Below are positions 25,818-42,465 of a stretch of 64,000 bases of DNA, one piece after another. This DNA comes from Tepidanaerobacter syntrophicus (GTDB lineage: Bacteria; Bacillota; Thermosediminibacteria; Thermosediminibacterales; Tepidanaerobacteraceae): the NCBI RefSeq assembly GCF_001485475.2, contig NZ_DF977003.1:62001-126000 (forward strand), given 5' to 3'. The position numbers and the translations under genes are program-made. The notes under the pieces are model-generated. The model was not told the DNA's origin, did not search any database, and saw only the letters and a program-made list of their open reading frames with translations. Positions within the stretch are counted from its first letter, which is position 1. Each line of letters begins with the position of its first letter.

Positions 25818-25836
25818 TAAGCTCTAATAGTTTTTT

Positions 25837-25868: not shown

Positions 25869-25876
25869 GCTGTAAC

Positions 25877-26579: not shown

Positions 26580-26705
26580 ATGATCAAATAGATAATTTTT
26601 GGTGTTCTGTTTAAAAATAAAACATCTGTTGCATATTAGAACACTATATAAAAAATTTAATGCTTTAATTAGCAGAATACAAATATTTTGAAATTTTGCT
26701 TACAT

Positions 26706-26721
26706 TGGCATCATTTTTGCA
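26706..26721 (+). promoter_or_regulatory. Sigma-54 promoter upstream of the first SDR operon
   Basis: TGGCAT-N5-TTGCA has GG and GC separated by 10 bases, about 165 bp before the SDR start. A TGTTGCATAT sequence at 26627, similar to the TGTAGCA repeats near the second promoter, lies about 75 bp upstream and may be part of an enhancer. Confidence 0.82.
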
Positions 26722-26886
26722 TGCATAATTAATAAGTAGCAAAATAATTTTAACCAAAACTACATTATTAATCGACATTAGTGTCTAAAATACGATAGGT
26801 GGTTCAATTTTTTAATAAAGCCGGGACAGATTCTTTAATGACTATTGAGTTTTAAATTATCCAAAATAATAATAAGGGGGATAAAA

Positions 26887-27663
26887 ATGTTATTAAGTAA
26901 TAAGGTGATTATAATCACTGGAGGAGGCAGCGGTATGGGGAAAGCTGCATCTGAATTATTCGCAAAGGAAGGAGCAAAAGTTGTAATAGCAGATTACCAA
27001 GAAGTATACAAGAGACCAATAGGAAAGGAAGTAGCGGAAAACATACAAGAAAAAGGTTATGAAGCAAGATACATCGAAACAGACGTTTCTAAAGAAGATG
27101 AAGTTAAAAATCTTATAAATGAAGTAATAAATCTTTATGGAAGAATAGACGTTTTATATAACAATGCAAGCCATGGTTACTCTTCACCGTACACAATGGC
27201 TGATATCCTAAATACACCTCTGACTGACTGGTCAAAAATTTTAGAATTGAATTTAACTAGTATTTTTCTGTGCTGCAAGTATACTATTCCTCATATGCTT
27301 CAAAATGGAAAAGGCTCTATAATTAATTGCTCATCTATAAATGGACTTGTAGCTATGCCTGGAGCCGATGCTTATACAGCTGCGAAAGGAGGGGTTATTT
27401 CGCTTACCCGCGTTTTAGCATCTGACTATGGCCCGAAGAACATAAGAGTCAATTGCATATGTCCTGGAGCAATCAATACTCCAATGATTGCCGGAGCTAT
27501 AGCAAATCCAGAAGTGCAAAAATACTTTCAAACATCGACACCATTAGGTCGACTGGGAGAACCAGAAGAAGTTGCTAAACTTGCCCTATTTCTTGCATCT
27601 GATGATTCATCGTATTTGACAGGAGCTATAATACCGGTTGACGGTGGCTGGACAGCTCGATAA
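26887..27663 (+). CDS. SDR-family oxidoreductase (first of three)
   Basis: About 258 residues of the classical short-chain dehydrogenase type. The cofactor loop TGGGSGMGKA is at about 11-20, NNAS at about 91, and the catalytic Ser-Tyr-Lys is INCSS then YTAAK. An acidic residue after beta-2 (IADYQE) fits NAD(H) preference. Start 26887 is chosen because AAGGGGGAT lies just upstream; an in-frame ATG at 26845 has no RBS. It is first gene after a sigma-54 promoter and probably cotranscribed with the next SDR. Predicted to oxidise a secondary alcohol or reduce the ketone in the island's pathway. Confidence 0.85.
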   Translation: MLLSNKVIIITGGGSGMGKAASELFAKEGAKVVIADYQEVYKRPIGKEVAENIQEKGYEARYIETDVSKEDEVKNLINEVINLYGRIDVLYNNASHGYSSPYTMADILNTPLTDWSKILELNLTSIFLCCKYTIPHMLQNGKGSIINCSSINGLVAMPGADAYTAAKGGVISLTRVLASDYGPKNIRVNCICPGAINTPMIAGAIANPEVQKYFQTSTPLGRLGEPEEVAKLALFLASDDSSYLTGAIIPVDGGWTAR

Positions 27664-27731
27664 TGAATTACTATGTAGTATTTTATAGGTTTTGAGCTTT
27701 AAAACTAAATAAGATACAAGGAGAAAAGATC

Positions 27732-28574
27732 ATGTATAATATGAAAGGTAAAGTAGCATTAGTCACAGGGGCTGCTCGAGGTATAGGAAAAGCGTGCGCT
27801 CTACGACTTGCAAAAGAAGGGGTAGATGTTGCCGTATTAGATATTTGTTCAAAAATTAAGGAAAATCCTCAATGGGTGCCACCTAAACTTGAAGATCTTA
27901 AAGAAGTTGAGGGAGAAATAAAAAAATTAGGATGCAAATCTCTTGCGATTACTGCAGATGTAAGGAATACCAATCAAACTTTTAATGCTGTTGAACGAGT
28001 GGTTAAAGAATTTAGTAGATTAGATATTTTGGTAAATTGTGCCGGAGTTGGATTTCTCAATTTTTTAGATGATGTTGATGAAATTGCAGATTGGGACACC
28101 ACTATGGATGTAGATTTAAAAGGAACATTTTTTATGTGTAAAGCGGCTGCACCGATAATGAGACAACAAAAATATGGCAAAATCGTAAATATCGCTTCTA
28201 TTGCAGGTGTAACAGGTTCAGAAACCCTATTTCCATATTCAGCTGCAAAAGCAGGGGTAATTAATGCAACTCAAGGTCTTGCGAGAGCACTTGGACCTTA
28301 TGGAATAAATGTAAATGCGGTTAATCCCGGACTTGTCTGGACGCCAATGTGGCAAGTGACTGATAAATGGCTAGCAGAGCATATACCGCCATTCAAAGAT
28401 GAACTATATGTACCTAAGAAAGTATACGATGCTTCTGTTATGGCGTCAACGGCCCTTAAAAGGCCTACCACTACTGAACATATAGCAAATGTCGTGGCCT
28501 TCTTAGCTTCTGATGAAGCTAGTGAAATAACTGGCCAGAATATCAATGTTGATGGTGGAATTGAATACCACTAA
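27732..28574 (+). CDS. SDR-family oxidoreductase (second) with insertion after beta-2
   Basis: 280 residues. Cofactor loop TGAARGIGKA, NCAG, catalytic VNIASIAG and YSAAK. Between beta-2 and alpha-C it carries about 20 extra residues (ICSKIKENPQWVPPKLEDLK), a feature seen in some SDRs that bind cofactors tightly or use special acceptors; here that is only a hint. C-terminal substrate loop WQVTDKWLAEHIPPFKDE. AAGGAG precedes the ATG. It is the second gene of the sigma-54 operon, 68 bp after the first, and is followed by a hairpin terminator. Confidence 0.83.
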   Translation: MYNMKGKVALVTGAARGIGKACALRLAKEGVDVAVLDICSKIKENPQWVPPKLEDLKEVEGEIKKLGCKSLAITADVRNTNQTFNAVERVVKEFSRLDILVNCAGVGFLNFLDDVDEIADWDTTMDVDLKGTFFMCKAAAPIMRQQKYGKIVNIASIAGVTGSETLFPYSAAKAGVINATQGLARALGPYGINVNAVNPGLVWTPMWQVTDKWLAEHIPPFKDELYVPKKVYDASVMASTALKRPTTTEHIANVVAFLASDEASEITGQNINVDGGIEYH

Positions 28575-28610
28575 CAGTTTGTAAAAAAACCTCATAAAGG
28601 CAACCATATT

Positions 28611-28670
28611 ATATGTTCCTATAGAAAAACAGCTTAGACAAAAAGCTAGTTATCTTGGGAACATATTTTC
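28611..28670 (+). terminator. Hairpin terminator after the two SDR genes
   Basis: A 9-bp outer stem (ATATGTTCC with GGAACATAT) encloses a smaller AGCTT/AAGCT hairpin and is followed by TTTCTATTTT. The remaining gap to the activator (28671-28874) is AT-rich and shows no convincing promoter. Confidence 0.6.
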
Positions 28671-28874
28671 TATTTTAAATAACATTTATTATTGGGCTTC
28701 TTAAAGCGGTTAAATACAAACAATCAAAAAAATTGTATTCAATAATATAAATATAAAAATACAGTAACAAGCAGGAATATTTATAGAAATATAGAATTCT
28801 TAAATAATAGCTATTGATACTTATAATCTTTACTTAAAATATTTAATAATAATAGTAAATTTAGGAGGGAAAGT

Positions 28875-30857
28875 ATGGAACTGCTTCCAGATGAGCTTAA
28901 ACCTATTTGGAAGGATTTTATCAATGGGAGCGAAAAGAATATCAAGAAAGTGAGGACAGTGATAAGAGAATCTTGGTTGCGCTGCAAAAAAGCAGGAGTT
29001 AATCCATATCAAAAATTAGTAGAAAATATTATAAATACTGATAATTTAAAAAGTATAAAGCAAAAAAATAAATACTGGTTGGAAATTGCCAGGCCGGTTA
29101 TGCAAACGTTATATAACTTTGTAATGAGTTCAGGATTTATAATCAGTATTTCTGACAATAACGGTATTTTGTTAGAAATGATAGGAGACCCTGACATAGT
29201 CAAAGATATTGCAAATGGTAATTTTATACCTGGAGCTGATTGGAGCGAAATTAGTGCAGGAACTAATGGCATTGGGACGGTGCTTATTACAAATAAACCT
29301 TTACAAATTTTTAGTTTTGAGCATTATTGTATTTGCTCCCATAAATGGACTTGTTCTGCTGCTCCTATTCATGATCCTGACGGTCAAATAATCGGAGTAC
29401 TAGATATGACCGGACGTTATGAGAATGTGCACCCCCATACATTAGGAATGGTTGTGGCGGGAGCAGATGCAGTGGAACGTCAGATTACTATGCAAAAAAT
29501 ATGGCTGGAACGCAATCGCACTAATAGATTGTGCGAAGCTTTAATGGAATCCATTTCAGAGGGTATAATTGCTACAAATGCAGACGGCAAAATTATTCAT
29601 ATAAATCAAGTAGCAGCCCAAATATTAAAAGTTCAAGCCGAAAGTGAGATAGGAAAAGATATTAATGAAGTTTTTAAATGCAATGGAAAAGATTGCAAAA
29701 GCATCTTAAATAAAAATAAATACATTACCGATGAAGAAATCGATATAAGCAATGAACACAGTAACACAAAGGCAGTAGTGACAACGCGGCCTATTAGAGA
29801 TAATGAAGGACACCATGAAGGCAATGTTATGATAGTTAACAAAATATCTCGCGCGAGGCAATTAGCGCAGCGCATGAGCGGTGCTACAGCTAAAGTCACC
29901 TTTGAGGATTTATTGGGGAATTCTCCAAAATTTAAAGAGTGCTTACACATTGCTAATATAGCAGCTTCTAGCGATTCTACAGTGCTTCTTTTAGGAGAAA
30001 GCGGTACCGGGAAAGATGTTTTAGCACAAGCAATTCATAATGCCAGTTGTCGAGCAAAAGGTCCGTTTGTGGTGCTAAATTGCGGAGCAGTTCCAAAAGA
30101 TCTGATTGGTAGCGAACTTTTTGGATATGTCGAAGGAGCTTTTACAGGGGCAAGACGTGGTGGTAATCCAGGAAAGTTTGAACTCGCTGAAACTGGGACT
30201 ATTTTCTTAGATGAAATAGGGGATATGCCGCCTGAATTGCAGTCAAATTTATTAAGAGTAATTGAACAAAAGACTATAACCCGTATAGGAGGAAATTCCG
30301 TAATACCTGTAAATGTGAGGATTATTGCTGCTACGAATCGTGATTTAATAAAAGAAGTTAAACTTGGTAATTTTAGAGAAGATTTGTTTTTCAGATTAAA
30401 TGTTATAACCATAAATCTTGTTCCTTTAAGAGAACGCTTAGAAGATCTTGAACTACTTTTTTTGCATTTCTTAAAAAAGAAAGAAAAACAGATGGGAAAG
30501 AAAATATATGAAATTGATGAGAGAATATGGAATATTTTAAAGTGTCATTCATGGCCTGGAAATGTAAGAGAACTTCAAAATGTAGTGGAGAGAGCAATAA
30601 ATATGTGCGATGGTTCTAAGCTGAAACTAGAGCATTTACCTGCATATTTGAGTGAACAGACAAACACTTCTTTAAATAAAGAAAATAGTGAGCCCATAGC
30701 AATTTATGAAAAACAATTGATTATGAAACTTTTAAAAAATAAAAAGGGGAATATAAGCCAAGTAGCTAAAGAGTTGGGAGTTGCAAGATCGACACTATAT
30801 CGCAAAATGTCAAAATATGGTTTGATCGAAGAAAAAAAGGTGTATAGAGAATTGTAG
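28875..30857 (+). CDS. AcoR-like sigma-54-dependent activator
   Basis: 660 residues. About 60-200 is a GAF-type sensor (SEISAGTNGIGTVL, then HKWTCSAAPIHDPDG) as in AcoR/acetoin activators. About 215-320 is a PAS domain. About 345-575 is the AAA+ core with GESGTGKD, GAFTGA and TIFLDEIGDMP. About 610-655 is a Fis-type helix-turn-helix (GNISQVAKELGVARSTLYRK). AGGAGGGAA precedes the ATG. It lies between two sigma-54 promoters, one upstream of the SDR pair and one 118 bp after its stop, so it is the probable activator of the whole island. The inducer is unknown; the acetoin-dehydrogenase-like genes downstream agree with the AcoR type. Confidence 0.92.
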   Translation: MELLPDELKPIWKDFINGSEKNIKKVRTVIRESWLRCKKAGVNPYQKLVENIINTDNLKSIKQKNKYWLEIARPVMQTLYNFVMSSGFIISISDNNGILLEMIGDPDIVKDIANGNFIPGADWSEISAGTNGIGTVLITNKPLQIFSFEHYCICSHKWTCSAAPIHDPDGQIIGVLDMTGRYENVHPHTLGMVVAGADAVERQITMQKIWLERNRTNRLCEALMESISEGIIATNADGKIIHINQVAAQILKVQAESEIGKDINEVFKCNGKDCKSILNKNKYITDEEIDISNEHSNTKAVVTTRPIRDNEGHHEGNVMIVNKISRARQLAQRMSGATAKVTFEDLLGNSPKFKECLHIANIAASSDSTVLLLGESGTGKDVLAQAIHNASCRAKGPFVVLNCGAVPKDLIGSELFGYVEGAFTGARRGGNPGKFELAETGTIFLDEIGDMPPELQSNLLRVIEQKTITRIGGNSVIPVNVRIIAATNRDLIKEVKLGNFREDLFFRLNVITINLVPLRERLEDLELLFLHFLKKKEKQMGKKIYEIDERIWNILKCHSWPGNVRELQNVVERAINMCDGSKLKLEHLPAYLSEQTNTSLNKENSEPIAIYEKQLIMKLLKNKKGNISQVAKELGVARSTLYRKMSKYGLIEEKKVYREL

Positions 30858-30891
30858 CATATGTTGTGTAGCACAATAGAACAATGTAGCA
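30853..30891 (+). promoter_or_regulatory. Candidate enhancer: three TGTAGCA repeats
   Basis: TGTAGCA occurs at 30853-30859, 30867-30873 and 30885-30891, about 85-120 bp upstream of the sigma-54 promoter. The middle copy is within a TTGTG-TAG-CACAA palindrome (30864-30876). The first copy overlaps the activator stop codon. Distance and repetition fit activator binding sites. Confidence 0.5.
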
Positions 30892-30899
30892 ATTTAATA

Positions 30900-30967
30900 C
30901 ATGAATTATTAAGTTAAAATACGAGGAAAGTATATACTTTCCTCGTATTTTAACTTAATAATTCATG
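30900..30967. repeat. 68-bp perfect palindrome
   Basis: Every base from 30900 pairs with its partner up to 30967, giving 34-bp arms with no spacer, centred on GTATATAC. It lies between the activator stop and enhancer-like repeats on one side and the sigma-54 promoter 8 bp away on the other. As RNA it would form a very long hairpin; no T tail follows. It may be a terminator, a structural element or a binding site. Confidence 0.9.
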
Positions 30968-30974
30968 AGTTCAT

Positions 30975-30990
30975 TGGCACAAATTTTGCT
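30975..30990 (+). promoter_or_regulatory. Sigma-54 promoter of the main catabolic operon
   Basis: TGGCAC-N5-TTGCT, GG to GC spacing 10, lies 48 bp before the third SDR gene. It follows the 68-bp palindrome and the TGTAGCA repeats. Probably drives at least the genes from 31038 to 38841, which have only small gaps. Confidence 0.9.
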
Positions 30991-31037
30991 TATTAAAATT
31001 ATTAGACAAATACTAATAAGAAAAGGAAACGATAAAA

Positions 31038-31805
31038 ATGACATCAAAATTTAATTTGGAAAATAAAGTAGCCATAGTTACAGGTGGTAGTCGAGGGATT
31101 GGAAAAGCCATTTCGTTGGGATTAGCAGAAGCAGGAGCTGATGTAGTACCTGTTAGCCGGACAAAGGCAGCCGTTGACGAAGTGTGCAACCTAATAGAAA
31201 ACCTGGGAAGAAGAACTTTGTCAATAACTACCGATGTAAGTGATGAAAGTAGCGTTAAATTCATGATAGAAAAAGTAATTAAAACTTTTGATAAAATAGA
31301 TATATTAATAAACGGAGCAGGAATAAGCCCTATCTTAAAGAGTGCAGAAAAAACATCACTAGAGGAATGGAACCAAATTATAAATACTAATCTTACAGGA
31401 GTGTTTATATGTTCTAATGAAGTCGGAAAAATAATGATTGACAAGAATGTTAGCGGAACAATAATCAATATTGCTTCTGTGGGTGGGAAAGTAGGCCTTT
31501 TACGTCAAGCTGCTTATTGTGCTGCAAAAGGAGGAGTGATTCAACTTACAAAGGTGCTTGCACTAGATTGGGTTAAATATGGGATTAGAGTAAATGCTAT
31601 AGCACCCGGCTATGTGAAAACAGACTTGACAGCCGGAGTCATGAATTCAGAAAAAATATATAATGATTTAATATCAAAAACACCAATGAGTAGGTTTGGC
31701 GAACCTGAAGAAATAACTGGAGCAGCTATATATCTTGCGTCAGATGAAGCTTCTTATGTGACTGGTGAAGTCATTACTGTCGACGGAGGATATACAGTGT
31801 GGTGA
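31038..31805 (+). CDS. SDR-family oxidoreductase (third), FabG-like
   Basis: 255 residues, classical SDR. Cofactor loop TGGSRGIGKA (about 14-23), NGAG, catalytic INIASVGG and YCAAK, and end motif YVTGEVITVDGGYTVW. The residues after beta-2 (VSRTKAAVDE) include an Arg and could allow NADP(H). AAAAGGAAA is the RBS. First gene after the second sigma-54 promoter, with thiolase and 3-hydroxyacyl-CoA dehydrogenase following. It may oxidise a hydroxy substrate or hydroxyacyl-CoA in the pathway. Confidence 0.85.
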   Translation: MTSKFNLENKVAIVTGGSRGIGKAISLGLAEAGADVVPVSRTKAAVDEVCNLIENLGRRTLSITTDVSDESSVKFMIEKVIKTFDKIDILINGAGISPILKSAEKTSLEEWNQIINTNLTGVFICSNEVGKIMIDKNVSGTIINIASVGGKVGLLRQAAYCAAKGGVIQLTKVLALDWVKYGIRVNAIAPGYVKTDLTAGVMNSEKIYNDLISKTPMSRFGEPEEITGAAIYLASDEASYVTGEVITVDGGYTVW

Positions 31806-31821
31806 CATTAGGAGGCAAAAT

Positions 31822-33000
31822 ATGAGGGAAGCATATATATTAGAGGGCTTGAGAACACCAATTGGCAGATATGGCGGTAGCTTAAAAAGTTTTTCGGCGA
31901 CTGATCTGGGGAGCATAGTTATCAAAAACTTGCTTATAAAATCACAAATAGACCCAAAAAATGTAGAAGAAGTAATAATGGGTTGCACTTGTCAAAATGG
32001 TGAAAACGCATATGCTAGTCGCACTGCGGCTCTAAAAGCAGGACTACCAGTATCGTCGTCGGCTCTTACTGTAAATAGATTATGTGGTTCAGGGTTAGAC
32101 TCTATAAATATAGCTGCTCAAAAAGTAATTCTGGGAATAAATGAGCTATGCGTGGCAGGCGGCATGGAGAGCATGAGCAATGTACCATATTTGCTTTATG
32201 AAGCAAGATGGGGAGCACGACTTAACGATGTAATTTTAAAAGATGGTTTAATTGCAGTGCTCACTGACCCTATACTAGGGTATCATATGGGAGTTACAGC
32301 AGAAAACTTGGCAAAAGAGTATAGCATTGAACGAGAAGAACAAGATGCGACAGCATATGAAAGCCATATGAAAGCTTTAAAAGCTTTGAAAGATGGCTTT
32401 TTTAAAGATCAAATCATTCCGATAGAATTAAAGAATTACAATAAAAATTTAATCATTGGTGATGACGAGTGTCCAAGACCAGATACCAGCATAGAAACTC
32501 TTTCAAAACTTAAACCAGCTTTTGATAAAAACGGAACAGTAACGGCGGGAAATTCTTCTCCATTAAACGATGCCGCTGCAGCAGTTGTGATAGCAAGTGA
32601 GGAGCAAAGTATAAAATTAAATATAAAGCCAAAAGCTAAAATTAGAGGTTTTACAGTTGAAGGTGTTGAGCCATCGATGATGGGGCTGGGGCCCGTTAAA
32701 GCTACTCAAAAAGTCTTAAAACAAACAGGAATAAAACTTGATGATATTGATGTAATTGAATGTAATGAAGCTTTTGCAGCTCAATATTTAGCTTGTTCCA
32801 AAATTCTTAAATGGGATATGAATAAAGTTAATCCGAACGGGGGAGCAATAGCTTTAGGCCATCCGCTCGGGGCTACTGGCGGAATATTAATGGTGAAAGC
32901 TTTGTGGGAGCTAGAAAGGATTCAGAAGAAATTTGCCTTAATTACTATGTGTATAGGAGGAGGACAAGGCATTGCAACTTTGATAGAAAGGGTAATTTGA
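31822..33000 (+). CDS. Thiolase (acetyl-CoA C-acetyltransferase type)
   Basis: 392 residues. All catalytic motifs are present: nucleophile Cys at about 88 in NRLCGSG, CNEAFAAQ, GGAIALGHPLGATG with the active His, and CIGGGQG with the second Cys. It cleaves acetoacetyl-CoA or another 3-oxoacyl-CoA with CoA to give acetyl-CoA. Start 31822 is preceded by AGGAGGC; the in-frame ATG at 31765 lies inside the preceding SDR gene. With the dehydrogenase and crotonase downstream it completes a beta-oxidation spiral. Confidence 0.93.
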   Translation: MREAYILEGLRTPIGRYGGSLKSFSATDLGSIVIKNLLIKSQIDPKNVEEVIMGCTCQNGENAYASRTAALKAGLPVSSSALTVNRLCGSGLDSINIAAQKVILGINELCVAGGMESMSNVPYLLYEARWGARLNDVILKDGLIAVLTDPILGYHMGVTAENLAKEYSIEREEQDATAYESHMKALKALKDGFFKDQIIPIELKNYNKNLIIGDDECPRPDTSIETLSKLKPAFDKNGTVTAGNSSPLNDAAAAVVIASEEQSIKLNIKPKAKIRGFTVEGVEPSMMGLGPVKATQKVLKQTGIKLDDIDVIECNEAFAAQYLACSKILKWDMNKVNPNGGAIALGHPLGATGGILMVKALWELERIQKKFALITMCIGGGQGIATLIERVI

Positions 33001-33014
33001 AGGGAGATTAAAAA

Positions 33015-33875
33015 ATGTTCGTTTTAATTATAGGTGCAGGCACCATGGGTTCCGGTATTGCTTACACTGCTGCTGAAGCAGATAACAAAGTCTATTTATA
33101 TGATATAAAAGCTGAAATAGTTCAAAATGCACTAAAAAATATAGAACACTTATTGGATGAAAAAATCTCAAAGGGGAAAATTGATCCAGTAAAGAAAAAT
33201 GGAATTTTAGGCAATATTAATCCAGCGTATGATTTGGACAATATACAGCCGAGAGTTGATTTAGTAATAGAAGCTGCGGCAGAGAATCTAATGATAAAAA
33301 AAGATATCTTTAAAAAAATAGATAACATTTTTCCAGAACAAACAATTTTTACTACAAATACGTCAGCTTTAAGTGTAACAGAAATTGCTAATACCACCAA
33401 AAGACCAGAAAAAGTTGCAGGAATGCATTTTTTCAATCCGGCACCAGTAATGGCTTTAATAGAAATAGTTAAGGGAGCCCGCACATCGCCGGACACTATA
33501 AATTTTATAAAAGATTTTGCTGAAAAGATTGGAAAAACTCCTATTATAGTAAATGAAACTCCGGGATTTGTAGTCAATAGAATATTAGTGCCTATGATCA
33601 ACGAAGCTGTTTATGCATTAATGGAAAATGTAGCAGATGCAGAAGACATTGATAAAGGTATGAAATTAGGTGCCGGACATCCGATAGGGCCATTGTCGCT
33701 GGCTGATATGATAGGCCTAGATATATGTTTGGCAGTTATGGAAACGTTCTACACCGAATTTGGCGATTCAAAATATCGACCTTGTCCCCTTCTTCGGAAA
33801 ATGGTCAGGGCTGGTTATCTTGGAAGAAAAACAGGAAAAGGATTCTTCGATTATTCACAAAAGCAATATATTTAA
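33015..33875 (+). CDS. 3-hydroxyacyl-CoA (3-hydroxybutyryl-CoA) dehydrogenase
   Basis: 286 residues, the usual length of the short monofunctional form. N-terminal NAD-binding loop GAGTMGSGIA (about 6-15), Asp at the end of beta-2 (YDIK), catalytic His in GMHFFNPAPVM, and the C-terminal domain with GFVVNRILVPMINEA and GHPIGPLSLADMIGLD. Oxidises (S)-3-hydroxybutyryl-CoA to acetoacetyl-CoA with NAD+. It lies 14 bp after thiolase in the sigma-54 operon and completes the conversion of crotonyl-CoA to acetyl-CoA with crotonase and thiolase. Confidence 0.92.
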   Translation: MFVLIIGAGTMGSGIAYTAAEADNKVYLYDIKAEIVQNALKNIEHLLDEKISKGKIDPVKKNGILGNINPAYDLDNIQPRVDLVIEAAAENLMIKKDIFKKIDNIFPEQTIFTTNTSALSVTEIANTTKRPEKVAGMHFFNPAPVMALIEIVKGARTSPDTINFIKDFAEKIGKTPIIVNETPGFVVNRILVPMINEAVYALMENVADAEDIDKGMKLGAGHPIGPLSLADMIGLDICLAVMETFYTEFGDSKYRPCPLLRKMVRAGYLGRKTGKGFFDYSQKQYI

Positions 33876-33904
33876 AAAAGAAATAAATTTAGGAGGTTTC
33901 CTTA

Positions 33905-35356: not shown

Positions 35357-35670
35357 TAAAAGCTATTGGCATAAAATGTTGTGGAGGATGCAACTCAGAA
35401 GTTGATATAGAAGAAACTTTTAAGAAGATACAGGATATTTTAGAAAAATTACACTTAACTATTGCATTTGATCTTTCTAAAGTCGATGGCTTAGTAATAT
35501 TAAATGGTTGTAGTACTGCGTGCATCAAAGCAGAAGATTTTTCTCAAATAAAAAATTTAATAATTATAAATGGCAAAAACTCAAACTTTAAAGTACTGTT
35601 TGAAGACGAAATTATGTTGCTAGTAGCTCAAGAACTTACAAAGGTGGGAAAACAATGGAGGAACGGTTGA
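35353..35670 (+). CDS. Small Cys-rich protein, unknown function
   Basis: 105 residues. I do not recognise it. The N-terminus has KCCGGCN (Cys 9, 10 and 13) and the middle has NGCSTAC (Cys 53 and 57), five cysteines that could hold an iron-sulfur cluster or zinc. The predicted order is alternating strands and helices. It overlaps the dehydratase stop by four bases and the crotonase start by 16 bases, so it is translated with both. A role in assembling, protecting or reducing the dehydratase cluster is an inference from position alone. Confidence 0.75.
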   Translation: MIKAIGIKCCGGCNSEVDIEETFKKIQDILEKLHLTIAFDLSKVDGLVILNGCSTACIKAEDFSQIKNLIIINGKNSNFKVLFEDEIMLLVAQELTKVGKQWRNG

Positions 35671-36440
35671 TTATCAAAGAAAATCTATCTCCGAATGTAT
35701 TATTAATAAAATTTAATCGTCCGAAGTATTTAAATGCTATAAATAAACAGCTGTTAAAGCAATTATACGAAGAACTATTAAAGATAAAATCTGAAAAGCA
35801 AATAAGTAGTATTATTATAACCGGAGAAGGAGAAAAAGCTTTTATAGCCGGAGCAGACATAAATGAAATTGTAAATATGACATGCTCAGAAGCTAAAGCT
35901 TTTTCGATGTTCGGCCAAGCAGTATTTGATTTTATAGAAAATTATGATAAACCAATTATAGCTGCAATAAATGGCTTTGCTCTTGGAGGAGGATTGGAAC
36001 TAGCCCTTTCTTGCGATATAAGAATAGCTTCAGAAAAGGCTAAATTTAGTTTTCCAGAGATTAATTTAGGAATAATGCCGGGCTTTGGAGGAACTCAAAG
36101 GTTAACAAAAATTATAGGTATAGCTAAAGCCAAGGAAATGATATATACAGGAAAAATGATTAATGCTTATGATGCCGAAAAAATAGGCTTAGTAAATTAT
36201 GTTGTCAAAGATAATGAATTAATAGAGAATGTTAAGAATTTTGCACAAGACTTAGCTTTAAAAAGCAAATTTGCCCTTAAACTAGCTAAAGAAAGTATTA
36301 ATAAAAGCATCGAAACTTCAGAGGGCGCAGGGATGACATTAGAATCAAGTGCATTTAGCTTGTGCTTTTCAACAAAAAATCAAAAAGAAGGAATGCTAGC
36401 TTTTTTAGAAAAACGTAACCCAAAATTTGTAAATGAGTAA
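35655..36440 (+). CDS. Enoyl-CoA hydratase (crotonase family)
   Basis: 261 residues. Crotonase fold with oxyanion-hole segments AFIAGADINEI and GFALGGGLELALSCDIRIA. Both catalytic Glu of true hydratases are present (GGGLELALSCD and FPEINLGIMPGFGGTQRL), as in mitochondrial enoyl-CoA hydratase. Predicted to hydrate crotonyl-CoA to 3-hydroxybutyryl-CoA, the step between the AbfD-type dehydratase and the 3-hydroxyacyl-CoA dehydrogenase. Its start lies inside the preceding gene. Confidence 0.92.
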   Translation: MEERLIIKENLSPNVLLIKFNRPKYLNAINKQLLKQLYEELLKIKSEKQISSIIITGEGEKAFIAGADINEIVNMTCSEAKAFSMFGQAVFDFIENYDKPIIAAINGFALGGGLELALSCDIRIASEKAKFSFPEINLGIMPGFGGTQRLTKIIGIAKAKEMIYTGKMINAYDAEKIGLVNYVVKDNELIENVKNFAQDLALKSKFALKLAKESINKSIETSEGAGMTLESSAFSLCFSTKNQKEGMLAFLEKRNPKFVNE

Positions 36441-36521
36441 ACAAAATATGGTTAGCGAATATCTTATAAAAATGAAAAAGGAAAGGAGGCTAAATACTCC
36501 CTTATGAAGGAGTAAACACAC

Positions 36522-37748
36522 ATGGATAATAAAAATAAAGAGACAATTTCTAACTACAGATGGATTGTTGAACTATTCATAGTATTTGGAACAGCCATGA
36601 TGAGTGCCCTATGGCTTGCTCCATCTCCGCTATTGCCGACCATTATTAAAGATTTATCAATTAACCTTGCACAAGCAGGCATGATTATTTCAATTATGCC
36701 TTTATGTGTGGCGCTTTTTTCTACCTTAGCAAGTTTTCTAATAGAAAAGTTTGGAGCAAAAATTGCTTTTGCGATAGCACTTTTACTGATAGGAACGGGT
36801 GGAGCTTTAGCAATCTTGGTTACAGCATATAGCAACTTTTTACTAACTCGTCTGATTTTAGGCATAGGATATGCGATGATGACAGCAATACCCGGAGTTT
36901 TGATAATGACATGGTTTCCTGATAATGAAAAACCATTTATAAATACTATTAACTCATGCTTGACTTATGTAGGTATGACACTAGCGTTTTCTCTGACACT
37001 TCCTCTTACCTATAGATTTGGAAGCTGGCAGAAAGCCCTTGCTACCTATGGTTTTGCTGCTATTACCCTAGCCCTTCTATGGCTTGCATTTGGACGAGAA
37101 AAGGTAATCGAAACAAGCGAAAGACCCAATATTGAAGAGAAAAAGCATGAAAGCGCTCTTAGGTCTGCGATTAAAAAAAGAGAAGTTTGGTATCTTGCGA
37201 TAGCACTTTTTGGCGGTATGTGGGAGTTTCAGTTTTTTACTACATTTTTACCTACATTTTACCAACAATATCGACAATTAAATGCCGTTGCTGCAAGCAG
37301 CATTACAAGCTTGATAACTATTTCCGGTATAATCGGAGGTCTTGTCTGTGGTTTGCTGATGAGTATCATCGGAAAAAGAAAGATTTTTACATGGCCACTT
37401 CATACTGCCATTCTTTTTGGCTTATTGGGGTCTATAAGCTTTAAACCAGGCATAATGTTATACATTTCAGTAATATTAGTGGGGTTTGGAGCTGCCGGAT
37501 GGACGCCGGCATTACTTACGATACCGATGGAACTTAAGGGAATGACACCGAGTATGTTAGGAGGAGCCTATGCATTTATATTTGGGCTAGGCAATGCCGC
37601 AGCTTTTTTATCACCGGTAGTCGGCGGATGGCTAGCTTCTCGTATAGGGTTAAATACAACTTTATTCATATTTGCTTTTTCACAAATTTTACCTATAGTG
37701 TTTACTTTTTTACTTCCGGAAACAGGTCCTAGGGGGATAAAAAAATAG
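36522..37748 (+). CDS. Major facilitator superfamily transporter
   Basis: 408 residues, 12 predicted membrane helices in two halves with a polar central loop (about 195-220, ERPNIEEKKHES). The N-terminal half has WLAPSPLLPTIIKDL and the loop after helix 2 FLIEKFGAKIAFAIAL, as in CynX/NimT and similar carriers. It lies within the sigma-54 catabolic operon between crotonase and the alcohol dehydrogenase, so it most likely imports the pathway substrate. The spacer upstream contains repeated GGAG/CTCC segments but has a usable GAAGGAG. Confidence 0.85.
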   Translation: MDNKNKETISNYRWIVELFIVFGTAMMSALWLAPSPLLPTIIKDLSINLAQAGMIISIMPLCVALFSTLASFLIEKFGAKIAFAIALLLIGTGGALAILVTAYSNFLLTRLILGIGYAMMTAIPGVLIMTWFPDNEKPFINTINSCLTYVGMTLAFSLTLPLTYRFGSWQKALATYGFAAITLALLWLAFGREKVIETSERPNIEEKKHESALRSAIKKREVWYLAIALFGGMWEFQFFTTFLPTFYQQYRQLNAVAASSITSLITISGIIGGLVCGLLMSIIGKRKIFTWPLHTAILFGLLGSISFKPGIMLYISVILVGFGAAGWTPALLTIPMELKGMTPSMLGGAYAFIFGLGNAAAFLSPVVGGWLASRIGLNTTLFIFAFSQILPIVFTFLLPETGPRGIKK

Positions 37749-37788
37749 AAGCGGATCTCTTAATATATTGAAGGAGGTTATTAATATA

Positions 37789-38841
37789 ATGAAAATGAAA
37801 GCTGCTGTTTACTATAAACCTTTGGACATTAGGGTTGAGAATATAGAAGTGCCAGATATTGGCCCAAATGATATTTTAATTAAAGTAAAATATTGTGGGA
37901 TATGCGGTTCTGACGTTCATAGTTATAAATTAGGTTTATACATTAAACCAGGTCAAATAATGGGGCATGAATATTGTGGCGAAATTGTGAAAGTTGGAGA
38001 GAATGTCAAGAATTTGGAGGTAGGAGAGCGAGTTTTTGCTTCTGAAGCCGAACTTTGTGGGGAGTGTTATTGGTGTAAGAGACAAATGTATGCAATGTGC
38101 CCTCACTTATTTGAAGCCTGCACAGGATACGGAAAACCCGGCGCATATGCAGAATATATAAAAATTGGAAACGCAAGTTTAGATGTAAATGTTTTCAAAA
38201 TTCCGGATGAACTTGACGATATCACAGCTGCCACTATTGAACCAACAAGTGTAGCAGCTAATGCCGTATTGATAACCGAACCTCAAAAAGATGATAAAGT
38301 GGTTATTTTAGGAGCTGGGTTTATAGGCAATGTCATACTTCAAATATTTAAATCTGTCCCAGTGGGGAAAATAGTAGTGAGTGAAGTATCGCCACTAAGA
38401 CTTGATGCAGCAAAGAAAAAAGGTGCTGATGCAATTATTAATGCAAATACAGAAAGTGTCTTAGAGCGATGCAAAGAGGAGGTGGGGATTGGCCCTTATC
38501 ATTTCAATGTTGGAGCCATGGCTGATGTAGTAGTGGAGGCTGCCGGCGTGCCATCTACCATAAGAGATTCACTGGAAATAGTTAGAAGTGGCGGAACTAT
38601 TTCAATTGTAGCACTTGCAGAAAAAGAAACACCTATAAATACTACAAAAATTGTGCACAAAGCTCCTAAAATATTAGGCGCTTTTGGCGGCAGCGCTCCA
38701 GTAGCAATTAATTACTTAAAAGAAAAGAAAGCAACTACTCAAGATCTAATAACCCATGTTTTCTCATTAGACAACATTCAAGAAGCCTTCGAAGTGCAAT
38801 CAGATGCCTATAAATCCATAAAGGTTATGGTTAAACCATAA
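37789..38841 (+). CDS. Zinc-dependent medium-chain alcohol dehydrogenase
   Basis: About 350 residues, MDR family close to sorbitol, threonine and 2,3-butanediol dehydrogenases. Catalytic zinc ligands are Cys in CGICGSDVHSY, His-Glu in GHEYCGE and Glu in ATIEPTSVAA. Structural zinc cysteines are in CGECYWCKRQMYAMC. The NAD loop reads LGAGFIGNVI. Start 37789 follows AAGGAGGT by 10 bases; the TTG at 37768 overlaps that RBS. Predicted to oxidise a secondary alcohol or diol with NAD+. Its place before acetoin-dehydrogenase-like genes recalls butanediol/acetoin pathways. Confidence 0.88.
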   Translation: MKMKAAVYYKPLDIRVENIEVPDIGPNDILIKVKYCGICGSDVHSYKLGLYIKPGQIMGHEYCGEIVKVGENVKNLEVGERVFASEAELCGECYWCKRQMYAMCPHLFEACTGYGKPGAYAEYIKIGNASLDVNVFKIPDELDDITAATIEPTSVAANAVLITEPQKDDKVVILGAGFIGNVILQIFKSVPVGKIVVSEVSPLRLDAAKKKGADAIINANTESVLERCKEEVGIGPYHFNVGAMADVVVEAAGVPSTIRDSLEIVRSGGTISIVALAEKETPINTTKIVHKAPKILGAFGGSAPVAINYLKEKKATTQDLITHVFSLDNIQEAFEVQSDAYKSIKVMVKP

Positions 38842-38991
38842 AGAACTCAATCGTGAACATGGATATCTATAGATGTTCTTTCTTAGTTTTATTGAAATAT
38901 TATCTTCATCATGTTCTAAGACGCGTATATTTTTATACCTAAAATGATAGAGATAATAAATAAAAGATTAAAATAAATAGGAGGTTTTAAA

Positions 38992-39996
38992 ATGTCTAAA
39001 GTAGTAGAACCGATTGAAGACTGGGGTAAATACCCGAAGGACTTTGTGTTGAATATCTATAAAACATTGGTTCTTGAAAGAAGCGTTGATGATGCAATTT
39101 TAGGATTAATTAAAGAAGGTCGAACCGGCTCTCATCATCCTGGCAAAGGCGAAGAGGCACCGGCGGCCGGGGTTATGCCCACGTTAAGAAAAGATGATTA
39201 TGTTTACTATCATCATCGTGGAGTAAATACTCAAGTTGCAAGAGGAATGTCATTAGTCGATATTTTCGGCGATTTTTTAGGAACAATGGCTGGAAGCACA
39301 AGGGGCTTTGGAGCAGGAATAATTCACATGATTGAACCAAGCCTCGGGATGCTTGGCCAAAGTGGTACATTAGGAGGCTGTTTTCCACTGGCTACCGGTA
39401 CTGGAATATCTATTCAATTCCGAAAAACAGACCAAGTTGTGGCAGTGTTTTTTGGAGATGGCACAGCAAACCGTGGAACATGGCAAGAATCAATAAATGT
39501 GTGCAGTTATAGGAAGTTGCCCGTTATTTTCATATTACAAAATAACGGATATGCAATGTCTGTGAGTGAAAAAAACGTTTCCGCAAGAAAAGAATATCTT
39601 GCTGACAGAGCCGAGGGATTCGGGGTGCCTGGATATGTTGTAAAGGATGGTAACAATCCTTTAACAATATACGAAACGATGAAAGAATGTGTAGATAGAG
39701 CAAGACGTGGTGACGGACCATCGATGATCCAAGTGGATACGTATAGACATTATGGGCATTTTGTAGGAGACGATGGCATAAGCTATAGAGATCCAAAAGA
39801 GGTGGAGGAATGGATTAAACGGGATCCATTAAAAATTTCTTATGATCGCTTATTTGCGGCAGGATATATTACTCAAAAAGAAGCTGAAGAAATAAAGGCC
39901 GAAGCTGTTAAAAAAATAAAAGAGGCAATTGATATTGCTGCTGCTGCACCACAGCCTGGCAAGGAGAGAATATTCCAAGGATTGTTTGCAGAATAA
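38992..39996 (+). CDS. 2-oxoacid/acetoin dehydrogenase E1 component, alpha subunit
   Basis: 334 residues. The TPP-binding motif starts at GDGTANRGTWQES and ends in ILQNNGYAMS (about 160-190), as in E1 alpha of acetoin and branched-chain or pyruvate dehydrogenases. GSHHPGKGEEA and YYHHRGVNTQVARG form the active site. AcoA-type proteins are of this length. It works with the beta subunit and E2 below to transfer an acyl group from a ketonic substrate to lipoate. The 150-bp gap before it has an inverted GAACAT/ATGTTC pair but no sigma-54 motif, so it may or may not be part of the upstream operon. Confidence 0.9.
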   Translation: MSKVVEPIEDWGKYPKDFVLNIYKTLVLERSVDDAILGLIKEGRTGSHHPGKGEEAPAAGVMPTLRKDDYVYYHHRGVNTQVARGMSLVDIFGDFLGTMAGSTRGFGAGIIHMIEPSLGMLGQSGTLGGCFPLATGTGISIQFRKTDQVVAVFFGDGTANRGTWQESINVCSYRKLPVIFILQNNGYAMSVSEKNVSARKEYLADRAEGFGVPGYVVKDGNNPLTIYETMKECVDRARRGDGPSMIQVDTYRHYGHFVGDDGISYRDPKEVEEWIKRDPLKISYDRLFAAGYITQKEAEEIKAEAVKKIKEAIDIAAAAPQPGKERIFQGLFAE

Positions 39997-40050
39997 AGTC
40001 AATTTTAAAATTTTTAAGCTAAACTATTAAATTTTTAGGAGGTTATATAG

Positions 40051-41031
40051 ATGACTCGAAAAATAACCGGTGGTCAAGCCATAAATGAGGCTTTAAAAGA
40101 AGAGATGAGAAGGGATCCAACCGTTGTTTGCTATGGAGAAGATATAAAAATAATCGGGGACCTTTATGGTACAACAAAAGGATTAATAGATGAATTTGGA
40201 GAAGAACGAGTGTTTGAATTTCCGATTTCTGAAATGGCATTGGTGGGCAGCGGTGTAGGTATGGCTATTTCAGGGATGCACCCAGTTATTGATCTGATGT
40301 ATGCAGATTTTTTCCAGTGTGCAATGGATGAAATCTGGGCTAAAATGGCAAAATGGAGATATATGCATGGGGGACGCATAAATGTTCCTATGGTATTGAG
40401 AATGCCATCAGGTCTTTCGGGAGGAGCTGGTCCTGAGCATTCACAATGTCCGGAAGCTTTATTTTTAGGTTGTCCAGGATTAAAAATAGCTGTTCCCTCT
40501 ACGCCTTATGAGCTAAAAGGACTGCTAAAAACCGCAATAAGAGATCAAAATCCTGTTCTATTTTTTGAACCAAAAAGCTTGTATTTTAGCGAAGGAGAGG
40601 TTCCAGAGGAAGAATACCTAATTCCTTTTGGCAAGGCAGATATTAAGAAAAAAGGGCAAGATGTTACAGTTGTGGCAACGTGTGAAATGGTATCAAAAAG
40701 CATGAAAGCTGCTGAAAAGCTGGCAGAAGAAGGTATTGATATCGAAGTGATTGACCCAAGGACACTTTATCCTTTAGATAAAAATACAATCCTTGATTCT
40801 GTGAAAAAGACCGGAAGGCTTGTAACAGTGTATCAAGCGCCAAAAACGGGTGGATTCGGTTCAGAAGTTGCCGCTATTGTAGCTGAAGAAGCCTTATTTG
40901 ATCTGAAAGCACCTATTAAACGAGTAGGAGGAGAAGATGTGCCAATTCCAGCTCACATAGTTTTGGAGCAGATGGCAATTCCTCAAGTTGAAGATATTAT
41001 TGAGGGCGTAAAAGATGTTATGAGATACTAG
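40051..41031 (+). CDS. 2-oxoacid/acetoin dehydrogenase E1 component, beta subunit
   Basis: 326 residues, transketolase-type pyrimidine-binding and C-terminal domains. Signatures include GEDIKIIGDLYGTTKGL, EFPISEMALVGSGVGMA, GGAGPEHSQCPEAL and the C-terminal IDPRTLYPLD. Pairs with the alpha subunit 54 bp upstream. AGGAGG precedes the ATG. Together they decarboxylate a 2-oxoacid or cleave an acyloin; the AcoR-like activator of the island favours the second, without proof. Confidence 0.91.
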   Translation: MTRKITGGQAINEALKEEMRRDPTVVCYGEDIKIIGDLYGTTKGLIDEFGEERVFEFPISEMALVGSGVGMAISGMHPVIDLMYADFFQCAMDEIWAKMAKWRYMHGGRINVPMVLRMPSGLSGGAGPEHSQCPEALFLGCPGLKIAVPSTPYELKGLLKTAIRDQNPVLFFEPKSLYFSEGEVPEEEYLIPFGKADIKKKGQDVTVVATCEMVSKSMKAAEKLAEEGIDIEVIDPRTLYPLDKNTILDSVKKTGRLVTVYQAPKTGGFGSEVAAIVAEEALFDLKAPIKRVGGEDVPIPAHIVLEQMAIPQVEDIIEGVKDVMRY

Positions 41032-41075
41032 GCATTGCACTTTATATCTAAGAAAGTGAAGGGGATGAGATATAT

Positions 41076-42245
41076 ATGAATGTCCTCAAGCTACCCGCCT
41101 TTGGCATGTCAGCTAGAAGAGGAAAAATTGTTGAGTGGTTAGTAAAAGAGGGAGATACAGTTAAAGCCAATGAGCCATTATATAATATGGAAAGTGAAAA
41201 ATCCAGCATAACTGTTGAAGCCCCGTATGATTTAATAGTAAGAAAAATAATCCATCAAGAAGGAGATTTTGATGTCGGAACACCTATTGCAATAGTTTCA
41301 CTGCCGGACGAAGAATTTGACGAACAAGAGCTGAATAAGTTATTATCAGAAATATTAAATGATACAACAAAAGATACCTTGGGAGAAAAGACTGAAAAAG
41401 CAAAAGATACAATACCTAAAGATATTAGGAATATTAAAGCTACACCTTTTGCTCGCAAATTAGCAACTGAATTAAAAGTGAATTTAGAAAACGTTATAGG
41501 AACTGGACCCGATGGTCTAATTACAGATAGAGATGTAAAAAAATATATAGAGGAATTTAAAGAAAAGGAAAATTATCAATTAATAAGACTAACTGGTTTT
41601 GCAAAGATATCCGCAGAACATCTTACTGAAAGCTGGAAAAATATTCCTCATATTGTACAATTTATGGAAGTGAACGCAAATAGCTTAGTTAATGCTAGAG
41701 AAAAACTGATAAGCGAAATGAAATTTTCATATACTGATCTCTTGATAAAATTAGTTGCTATTACGTTAGAAAAACATCCCAAACTAAATGCTACCATGGA
41801 AAAAGAAAATGAGATAAAAAATTGGAAAAAAATAAATATTTCGGTAGCAATAGAGACTCCTTATGGTTTAACTGTTCCGGTAATAAAGAATGCTGATGAA
41901 AGGTCACTACAGGAAATTCACAAAGAAATAGAAAGGCTAGCTGAAAAATCAAGACAAAACAAACTGGCTCCGAGTGATATAAGCGGAGGAACTTTTACTA
42001 TATCTAATCTTGGCACGTATGGAGCAGAATTGGGCTTTCCAATAATTAATGCGCCTCAAGTAGCTCTTCTTTATATTGGTGCTATAAGACAAAAGCCGTG
42101 GATAGTAGATGGAAAAATTGATATAGCAATGATTATTAGTTTGTCACTAGCTTGTTACCACCGAGCCATAGATGGAGCAGTAGCTGCACGTTTTGCTAAA
42201 GATTTAAGAGAGGTAATAGAAAATGCTGAAACTTATTTATTGTAG
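41076..42245 (+). CDS. Dihydrolipoamide acyltransferase (E2)
   Basis: 389 residues. Lipoyl domain at about 1-78 with the attachment Lys42 in ESEKSS. Peripheral subunit-binding domain at about 112-150 (TPFARKLATELKVNL, then DRDVKKYI). Catalytic acyltransferase domain at about 165-389 with the HRAIDG (HxxxDG) motif near 359. It passes the acyl group from lipoate to CoA, making acyl-CoA without a ligase. No E3 (dihydrolipoyl dehydrogenase) gene follows in this window; E3 must come from elsewhere. It is the last gene of the island, followed by a terminator. Confidence 0.91.
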   Translation: MNVLKLPAFGMSARRGKIVEWLVKEGDTVKANEPLYNMESEKSSITVEAPYDLIVRKIIHQEGDFDVGTPIAIVSLPDEEFDEQELNKLLSEILNDTTKDTLGEKTEKAKDTIPKDIRNIKATPFARKLATELKVNLENVIGTGPDGLITDRDVKKYIEEFKEKENYQLIRLTGFAKISAEHLTESWKNIPHIVQFMEVNANSLVNAREKLISEMKFSYTDLLIKLVAITLEKHPKLNATMEKENEIKNWKKINISVAIETPYGLTVPVIKNADERSLQEIHKEIERLAEKSRQNKLAPSDISGGTFTISNLGTYGAELGFPIINAPQVALLYIGAIRQKPWIVDGKIDIAMIISLSLACYHRAIDGAVAARFAKDLREVIENAETYLL

Positions 42246-42283
42246 TTAACAGAGTAACAATTACAAACTAAATTTTGCGTTTT

Positions 42284-42312
42284 TTGGGAACTTAACTAAG
42301 TTCCCAATTTTT
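42284..42312 (+). terminator. Rho-independent terminator of the catabolic island
   Basis: An 11-bp perfect stem (TTGGGAACTTA with TAAGTTCCCAA) has a 2-base spacer and is followed by five T. It lies about 40 bp after the E2 stop. Confidence 0.9.
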
Positions 42313-42465
42313 GTATGCGCATCAAACGTATCCAAGAAAGTTTTGGCAAAATATCAATAGTAAACCAAGAAAAAAATTAAAAGGATTTTCTAGATATTTA
42401 TCGAATATATAGAATAAGGGTTTTAATAAGATGCTACAAAAAATTTAATTTCAGGAGGGGATTTA

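Follow-up and report, generated by a model that had tools for sequence, protein, structure and literature searches.

Gene content and transcriptional layout of the locus

The window analyzed here is a 64-kb stretch of the genome of Tepidanaerobacter syntrophicus, a thermophilic anaerobe from digesters (contig NZ_DF977003.1, positions 62,001 to 126,000), taken from an assembly of 2,427,925 bases in 9 contigs; the published genome of T. syntrophicus JL has 2,427,925 bp in 9 scaffolds (PMC4751323). Between gatB and oppA, the window carries 14 catabolic and regulatory genes, best explained as a horizontally acquired, sigma-54-controlled catabolic island, in which the gene for a radical-type dehydratase of the AbfD family stands together with genes for acetoin-dehydrogenase-like E1 and E2 components. 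An earlier note, made from the sequence alone, had placed all 14 genes on the + strand (26.8 to 42.2 kb), and this was borne out. Pfam and NCBIfam matches agree with the gene names at the family level, many NCBIfam equivalog scores being below their own cut-offs.

The first gene, SDR1 (26887 to 27663; listed from a TTG at 26845, with the ATG at 26887), encodes a short-chain dehydrogenase/reductase (SDR) with the Pfam domain adh_short_C2, and its closest solved chains are SDRs, including dihydroanticapsin and 2,3-butanediol dehydrogenases. SDR2 (27732 to 28574) has a mycofactocin-coupled SDR subfamily as its best model, below the cut-off. The next gene (28875 to 30857) encodes a sigma-54-dependent activator with GAF, PAS, AAA+ (Sigma54_activat), and Fis-type helix-turn-helix (HTH_8) domains, all over the Pfam cut-offs, a layout that fits enhancer-binding proteins of the AcoR/DhaR type. 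SDR3 (31038 to 31805) is of an SDR type that occurs near the AbfD subgroup described below, with gluconate 5-dehydrogenase types as its best models, also below the cut-off. It is followed by genes which family models assign to a BktB-like thiolase (31813 to 33000) and a 3-hydroxybutyryl-CoA dehydrogenase (HBDH) type protein (33015 to 33875), by the AbfD-like gene (33905 to 35356), and by a gene for a small cysteine-containing protein (35353 to 35670). Next come a crotonase of the short-chain enoyl-CoA hydratase type (35655 to 36440; family models), a major facilitator superfamily (MFS) transporter (36522 to 37748) whose best model is a D-galactonate transporter, far below the cut-off, and a Zn-dependent alcohol dehydrogenase (Zn-ADH; 37792 to 38841, listed from a TTG at 37768, with the ATG at 37792) named from Pfam and NCBIfam. 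The series ends with E1 alpha (38992 to 39996), E1 beta (40051 to 41031; Pfam and NCBIfam), and E2 (41076 to 42245). Solved-structure searches with SDR1 to SDR3 and the Zn-ADH pinned down no substrate, the Zn-ADH giving no match under E 1e-45.

Of the two sigma-54 promoters that the earlier note had called good, P2 (30975 to 30990, + strand, before SDR3) is a sigma-54-like site that matches TGGYRYRNNNNTTGCW exactly; P1 (26706 to 26721, + strand, before SDR1) has one mismatch to the consensus. They end ~48 bp and ~165 bp, respectively, 5' of the ATG codons of SDR3 and SDR1. The window contains 15 sigma-54-type sites with at most one mismatch (7.3 expected; none of 100 shuffles reached 15), and three sites in the window are exact. 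Two of the exact sites are located outside the island (4255 to 4270 and 20773 to 20788). Between the activator gene and P2 lies a perfect palindrome of two 34-bp arms with no spacer (30900 to 30967), which occurs once in the window and may either terminate the activator gene or be a site for the activator.

The 11 genes from SDR3 to E2 can be one transcript, since P2 precedes them, a terminator-like hairpin of 10 pairs followed by Ts (42284 to 42307, + strand) closes them 3' of E2, and the five + strand matches in a terminator scan of positions 31038 to 42245 all lie within genes. The same scan gave a single minus-strand match in the spacer between the crotonase and MFS genes; since the region gave 11 matches and its shuffles 9.9, single matches are weak evidence.

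The dehydratase belongs to a separate clade of the AbfD family

AbfD is usually taken as a marker of 4-hydroxybutyrate metabolism, both in fermentation and in the archaeal CO2-fixation cycles. The island protein, a predicted 4-hydroxyacyl-CoA dehydratase/isomerase of the HpaB/AbfD family, scored 605 bits against the AbfD of Clostridium aminobutyricum (1U8V) and 548 bits against vinylacetyl-CoA isomerase (6VJR), with 57% and 54% identity, respectively. Ten residues (R90, C99, Q101, C103, T190, E257, H292, Y296, C299, and K300) were identical in all 53 aligned rows, including 1U8V, at least four of these rows being repeats. Among the AbfD positions, we take C99, C103, H292, and C299 to be the [4Fe-4S] ligands and R90, Q101, T190, E257, Y296, K300, and E455 to be catalytic and FAD-site residues. 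The counterpart of Glu455 was assigned from the alignment as the glutamate of ESMHGAG (VESMHGAG in the island protein). The earlier designation of the protein as an AbfD-like dehydratase is thus upheld, in that every catalytic residue tested was present.

While the island protein shares the family, the Fe-S ligands, and the catalytic residues at the 10 counted positions with the AbfD of C. aminobutyricum, it lacks the four residues just before Glu455, AVGYRTES being reduced to LVES. The loop AVGYxTES of 1U8V and 6VJR is absent from the island protein and from the other 21 rows of its clade. These 22 gap-bearing rows formed one clade apart from 1U8V and 6VJR (SH-aLRT support of 99 in a 50-row tree built by a quick method), and it includes Clostridia, a deltaproteobacterial metagenome-assembled genome (MAG), a Dehalococcoidia MAG, and two Archaeoglobi MAGs. 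By its sequence, then, the dehydratase is assigned to the AbfD family, with Fe-S and catalytic residues intact, and to a distinct short-loop clade.

Short-loop AbfD genes often have an SDR gene nearby

Two sets of loci with AbfD-family genes were compared. The first consisted of 40 loci (21 short-loop and 19 long-loop), of which 36 belong to the phylum of the window, and left out stretches of <7 kb, the distant loci L010 to L016 (34% identity), and AbfD matches of at most 380 amino acids (L009). The second, of 61 rows, came from the phylum of G414, in which 66 of the 345 genomes gave a match at E 1e-180; this phylum is probably Desulfobacterota, judging from L009, a Desulfobacteraceae MAG, in G414. 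These rows cover 60 of the 61 best-scoring places, the remaining one lying inside another's stretch (L208). The four-residue gap was present in 21 of the 40 relatives in the first set and in 37 of the 61 in the second. Genes on the same strand within 8 kb were counted as neighbors, and SDRs were required to have at least 35% identity to those of the island; the main count was made by tblastn, and in several cases AbfD lies close to a contig end. The p-values given here overstate the evidence because the loci are related, and neighbor labels come from BLAST matches to reference open reading frames (ORFs) named by reading and partly by hidden Markov models; both points weigh against the pathway proposed below.

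In the first set, an SDR neighbor accompanied 14 of the 21 short-loop genes and 1 of the 19 long-loop genes (p=6e-5). The second set gave 17/37 versus 3/24 (p=0.011), or 14/33 versus 3/20 (p=0.067) in an ORF-based count that had one unclassed row and lost seven stretches in which longer spurious ORFs hid AbfD. With the sets pooled, the proportions were 31/58 and 4/43 (p=2e-6). The association of the short-loop AbfD clade with an SDR partner is the more general finding of this work and held up in the second genome set.

CoA-transferases showed the opposite distribution. They were near 5/21 short-loop and 9/19 long-loop genes in the first set, a difference that was not significant, and near 0/37 and 6/24 in the second (p=0.002), giving 5/58 versus 15/43 when pooled (p=0.002). 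Ligases were found beside 16/37 short-loop and 5/24 long-loop genes in the second set (p=0.1) and beside 20/58 and 5/43 in the pooled sets (p=0.01). Near short-loop genes, in contrast to the AbfD gene of C. aminobutyricum, a 4-hydroxybutyrate CoA-transferase is less common than an SDR and various acyl-CoA generators.

These counts bear on a rival account of the island, a classical fermentation of 4-hydroxybutyrate (or vinylacetate) in a new neighborhood, with 4-hydroxybutyryl-CoA converted to two acetyl-CoA and the remaining genes accessory. The 57% identity to the C. aminobutyricum AbfD, the conserved catalytic residues, and the presence of HBDH, crotonase, and thiolase, which fit C4 chemistry, are in its favor. 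We nevertheless consider it unlikely, as the short-loop clade is separate from the C. aminobutyricum AbfD and lacks four residues before Glu455, CoA-transferases are rarer and SDRs enriched in its neighborhoods, and no 4-hydroxybutyrate CoA-transferase is found among the island genes.

A second conserved neighbor is the small cysteine protein, which has 105 amino acids with a CxxC...CxxxC arrangement and matched no Pfam or NCBIfam model. In 19 of the 40 first-set loci, a CxxC motif protein is encoded no more than 2.5 kb from an AbfD-family gene, and outside these positions such a protein turned up once in 443 kb; besides the window, the loci are L004 to L006, L008, L077, L079 to L082, L087, L091, L135 to L139, L148, L151, and L152. 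The homologues mostly have 87 to 146 amino acids, with the CxxC in the form CGGCN, CGNCN, or CGHCN, and accompany both AbfD loop types in Bacteria and Archaea. Four cysteines, including the second pair (CxxxC), were invariant in five aligned rows. An AlphaFold model built from 5 rows had a mean pLDDT (per-residue model confidence) of 70 and retrieved nothing under E 0.001 in a Foldseek search against the PDB, and the Rdx model matched the homologue in L081 weakly (E 0.14). The protein may serve AbfD in maturation or as a redox partner.

Some AbfD loci carry a 2-oxoacid:ferredoxin oxidoreductase

In the first set, 2-oxoacid:ferredoxin oxidoreductase genes were neighbors in 11 of the 40 loci and CoA-transferase genes in 14, the two never together (p=0.004); by ORF count, CoA-transferases were present in 15/40, again never with the oxidoreductase (p=0.003). 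The POR_N density of 2.2 per Mb in 25 first-set genomes would place the domain in ~1.4 of 36 loci by chance, and 10 were seen. The enzymes differ in type, being PorA/PorB-like in L076 and L141, VorB-like in L084, and, as named by reading, an IorA/IorB pair in L089. The clusters that combine AbfD with such an oxidoreductase (L002/L076, L136, L138, L141, L142, and L080) have in part the same SDR, thiolase, HBDH, crotonase, and AbfD set as the island, the AbfD of L002 being 81% identical to that of the island, and share with it an acyl-CoA generator of the 2-oxo-acid type; they differ in having a ferredoxin-linked enzyme where the island has the NAD-linked E1/E2. No description of such clusters was seen among the open-licence papers listed, which included two archaeal genome papers. 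Two small short-loop clusters (L195 and L206) consist of an SDR, a ligase, the small cysteine protein, and AbfD. The source of acyl-CoA in short-loop clusters may vary among a ligase, a CoA-transferase, and, in clostridial relatives, a 2-oxoacid:ferredoxin oxidoreductase.

The oxidoreductase loci also suggest a route from sugar acids or hydroxyproline, in which 2,5-dioxopentanoate would be reduced to 5-hydroxy-2-oxopentanoate and oxidatively decarboxylated by E1/E2 to 4-hydroxybutyryl-CoA, the substrate of AbfD. Oxidoreductase-bearing AbfD loci hold an FAA_hydrolase protein (L136), an ILVD_EDD dehydratase (L084), and a DapA-family protein (L090), a galactarate/altronate dehydratase is present in L144, which is without the oxidoreductase, and the best models of SDR3, below the cut-off, are gluconate 5-dehydrogenase types. 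However, L084, L090, and L144 are long-loop members and the island has no sugar-acid dehydratase, and this route appears quite improbable.

Several other gene arrangements were seen near AbfD. L138 (5593 to 18525) contains two AbfD-family genes (67% and 39% identical to the island gene), a ferredoxin oxidoreductase, a carbon-nitrogen hydrolase, and a PanB-like protein; PanB-type genes (L138 and L150, named by reading) followed no consistent pattern near AbfD. In L089 (4400 to 14622), genes named by reading stand in a row: an aldolase and an acylating aldehyde dehydrogenase of the MhpE/MhpF kind, IorAB-like genes, a long-loop AbfD, an acyl-CoA dehydrogenase, and EtfBA-like genes, a possible route from pyruvate and an aldehyde to crotonyl- or butyryl-CoA. 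The MhpE/MhpF-like genes prompted the idea of vinylacetyl-CoA formation from 2-oxopent-4-enoate, which was dropped because it concerned one long-loop locus only.

The E1/E2 complex and the activator

The island E1 alpha was tentatively assigned to the acetoin dehydrogenase type by its loop GHFVGDD, in which the motif GHFxGD is that of the E1 in the canonical aco operon of the same genome (L156). It is divergent. In the tree it did not pair with the branched-chain keto acid dehydrogenase (BCKDH) chain, but its branch is long and the placement unsure. As in AcoABC systems, the genes are in the order E1 alpha, E1 beta, and E2, E2 has lipoyl, E3-binding, and acyltransferase domains (all over the Pfam cut-offs), and a Zn-ADH gene lies upstream, as in L095. 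In contrast to AcoABC operons, the island has neither E3 nor an AcoX-like gene, and the complex is encoded together with AbfD and beta-oxidation genes. A canonical acetoin operon was set aside as an explanation because L156 provides one elsewhere in the genome, with E3, an activator, an AcoX-like gene, and E1/E2 (E3 and AcoX by reading), and because none of the sampled E1s exceeds 44% identity to that of the island.

Besides the island, the genome has three E1/E2 sets, in L156, L155, and L157, several of the names resting on reading. In L155 (4835 to 15307, contig C5), also by reading, E1/E2 lies beside phosphotransferase system (PTS)-like sugar-alcohol transport genes and a homoserine-dehydrogenase-like protein. 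The E1 of this set has a GHSKSD loop, and its type was met again in further genomes sampled from the family, order, and class.

The best homologues of the activator (51% to 52% identity) lie beside AbfD genes, in L003, L077, and L078, and weaker ones (40% to 44%) lie beside E1 genes, in L093, L094, and L156. Homologues near AbfD-like genes were present in 7 of 40 loci at ≥45% identity and in 22 of 40 at any identity. Since the best homologues adjoin AbfD genes, the likeness of the activator to AcoR is poor evidence for acetoin.

The AcoA-like loop favors an alpha-ketol as the E1 substrate. A 2-oxo acid is favored by analogy with the ferredoxin oxidoreductase clusters and by what is missing for disposal of an acyloin-derived aldehyde: no aldehyde dehydrogenase is present among the island genes (none was searched for elsewhere), and aldehyde:ferredoxin oxidoreductase, considered as a sink for that aldehyde, was discarded, as there is none in the genome. 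A 2-oxo acid and an acyloin are equally good candidates for the substrate of E1/E2.

The two parts of the island share one insertion boundary

The designation of the locus as an island proved literally right. The DNA 3' of gatB was compared in six relatives in which gatB was located, and in five of these same-family genomes (G001 and G002, of the same genus, and G007, G011, and G005) gatB directly adjoins oppA, the sixth (G004) having no oppA behind gatB. In the window, ~16.5 kb separates the two genes, and the block ends just 3' of E2. Homology to the five gatB-oppA spacers breaks at 25783 to 25805, just before the gatB stop codon, and returns at 42378 to 42454, placing the left end near the end of gatB, the right end between the E2 terminator-like hairpin and oppA, and the island at approximately 25820 to 42380. 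The third-codon-position GC content (GC3) of the 14 genes is 0.215 to 0.299, lower than in 37 other window ORFs of at least 150 amino acids (mean, 0.330; p=2e-6), and the values for E1 alpha (0.299), E1 beta (0.275), and E2 (0.215) lie inside this range. No AbfD-like gene was found in the two other Tepidanaerobacter genomes searched.

Because the gatB-oppA break encloses both the AbfD part and E1/E2 and GC3 is uniformly low, the two look like one insertion; a single acquisition would be the simplest reading, with assembly in two steps as an alternative. At the left edge lies an IS200/IS605-family transposase gene (26007 to 26348, + strand; NCBIfam NF033573, 128 bits, over the cut-off) encoding 113 amino acids against a model of 126 positions and absent from the gene list of the earlier note. 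An inverted-repeat scan found a hairpin of two 15-nucleotide arms beside it (25877 to 25909), and a terminator-like hairpin lies 3' of gatB (25837 to 25865).

A proposed pathway and its main rival

The pathway that we prefer, and put forward tentatively on the basis of gene content and comparison, would lead from a keto precursor through the E1/E2 complex to the AbfD branch and acetyl-CoA. After uptake of an alcohol or keto compound via the MFS carrier, SDR1, SDR2, and the Zn-ADH would oxidize it to a 2-oxo acid or alpha-ketol. The thiamine pyrophosphate- and lipoyl-dependent E1/E2, using an E3 encoded at another locus of the genome, would cleave this product oxidatively to a 4-oxoacyl- or 4-hydroxyacyl-CoA. 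SDR3, proposed to be a 4-oxoacyl-CoA/4-hydroxyacyl-CoA oxidoreductase, would reduce the 4-oxo group where needed, and the short-loop AbfD would eliminate the 4-hydroxyl to give a 2-enoyl-CoA. Crotonase, 3-hydroxyacyl-CoA dehydrogenase, and thiolase would then yield acetyl-CoA and a second acyl-CoA. E1/E2 would replace the CoA-transferase, ligase, or 2-oxoacid:ferredoxin oxidoreductase that may provide the acyl-CoA in related clusters. The cyclic substrate that the earlier note had considered found no support, there being no ring-opening hydrolase among the 14 genes.

That E1/E2 makes the acyl-CoA for AbfD, as the earlier note had suggested, is plausible by analogy, because clostridial relatives place a decarboxylating generator near AbfD, never with a CoA-transferase. 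The gene set itself is real, and its combination looks new. Nothing was found in the open-licence literature on AbfD with acetoin dehydrogenase or on AbfD with ketoglutaric semialdehyde. In relatives, AbfD occurs with other acyl-CoA generators; E1 was near AbfD in none of the 101 loci, and among the sampled genomes E1/E2 joined to AbfD is unique to this island.

This absence heads the evidence against the proposed pathway. E1 was near AbfD in 0/40 first-set and 0/61 second-set rows, which comes close to the pattern that the earlier note had named as refuting its own idea, with E1/E2 and the beta-oxidation genes never co-occurring in relatives. (A 28% E1 beta-like match in L081 is a 674-amino-acid protein, probably 1-deoxy-D-xylulose 5-phosphate [DXP] synthase by its length, and was left out of the E1 counts.) Among 398 genomes sampled from the window's phylum, 42 had AbfD (E 1e-150), 56 had E1 alpha (E 1e-60), and 8 had both; in the 7 besides T. 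syntrophicus, the two genes lie on separate contigs. E1 alpha is a long branch whose best match among the sampled genomes has 44% identity, which makes its class of substrate uncertain; the island has no E3; and the 150-bp gap 5' of E1 alpha could hold a separate or secondary promoter. The ferredoxin oxidoreductase pattern was not repeated in the second set (2/61) and is not specific to the short loop, with 7/21 versus 4/19 in the first set and 8/58 versus 5/43 in the pooled sets (p=1). Finally, the earlier note's statement that a CoA-transferase or ligase is lacking applies to the 14 island genes and fails for the genome. A PF13336 CoA-transferase is encoded at C8:162490-163836 (other CoA-transferase families were not searched genome-wide) and is 56% identical to one that G052 encodes at a distance of 4.4 kb from its short-loop AbfD, and a PaaK-like ligase (37% identity to the reference) is encoded on C7. 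Either enzyme could activate a free acid, in which case E1/E2 would be unnecessary for the AbfD branch.

Such activation of a free acid is part of the main rival explanation, namely, that two independent cassettes happen to share both the island and the operon: one of AbfD and beta-oxidation genes that handles a 4-hydroxy or 4-oxo acid, served by the CoA-transferase or ligase from elsewhere, and a Zn-ADH-E1-E2 cassette converting a vicinal diol or acyloin, such as 2,3-butanediol or acetoin, directly to acetyl-CoA. A Zn-ADH gene adjoins E1 alpha without AbfD in L095 (34% identity to that of the island) and lies within ~4 kb of E1 alpha in L094 (26%) and L154 (32%), and the GHFxGD loop shared with the genome's own aco E1, together with the lack of E1 near AbfD elsewhere in the compared sets, points the same way. 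Yet a second acetoin enzyme would be redundant beside the aco operon, the terminator-like hairpin and the insertion boundary surround both parts, and the disposal of an acyloin-derived aldehyde meets the difficulty described above. We regard two cassettes as rather unlikely, and retain the E1/E2-fed AbfD pathway as the tentative working scheme.

A possible anaerobic parallel to levulinate degradation

In the E1/E2-fed pathway, the steps around AbfD resemble the aerobic degradation of levulinate by the Pseudomonas putida lvaABCDEFG products. In that pathway (PMC6692424, PMC9399607), LvaE makes levulinyl-CoA, the SDR LvaD reduces it to 4-hydroxyvaleryl-CoA, LvaA and LvaB are thought to phosphorylate the latter and LvaC to lead to 3-hydroxyvaleryl-CoA, and LvaR, annotated as sigma-54 dependent, controls the operon. 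The systems are alike in a sigma-54-type regulator, an SDR acting on a 4-oxoacyl-CoA, and the passage of a 4-hydroxyacyl-CoA into beta-oxidation. They differ in that Lva has the kinase LvaA/LvaB and the acyl-CoA-dehydrogenase-like LvaC in place of an AbfD-type dehydratase, and has the ligase LvaE; judged by annotation rather than by comparison with Lva sequences, none of the 14 island genes encodes a kinase, an acyl-CoA dehydrogenase, or a ligase. The clusters of L195 and L206 parallel the order ligase, SDR, and 4-hydroxyvaleryl-CoA of the levulinate route.

From the partners and the loop, we infer that anaerobes with a short-loop AbfD use it to take off the 4-hydroxyl in a single step. It is possible, if still doubtful, that in Bacteria and Archaea such proteins dehydrate 4-hydroxyacyl-CoAs longer than C4, such as 4-hydroxyvaleryl-CoA, once a partner SDR has carried out the reduction, constituting an undescribed anaerobic route of the levulinate type, of which T. 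syntrophicus would have a variant with E1/E2 making the acyl-CoA directly from a keto precursor. No paper on anaerobic levulinate degradation via 4-hydroxyvaleryl-CoA was found in the open-licence literature. The type strain of T. syntrophicus is in culture, and the congeners searched have no AbfD-like gene, which offers a direct handle on the pathway via growth. If the proposal is true, many AbfD annotations would need a second look, and anaerobes would have a widespread and so far unassigned pathway for hydroxy and keto acids.

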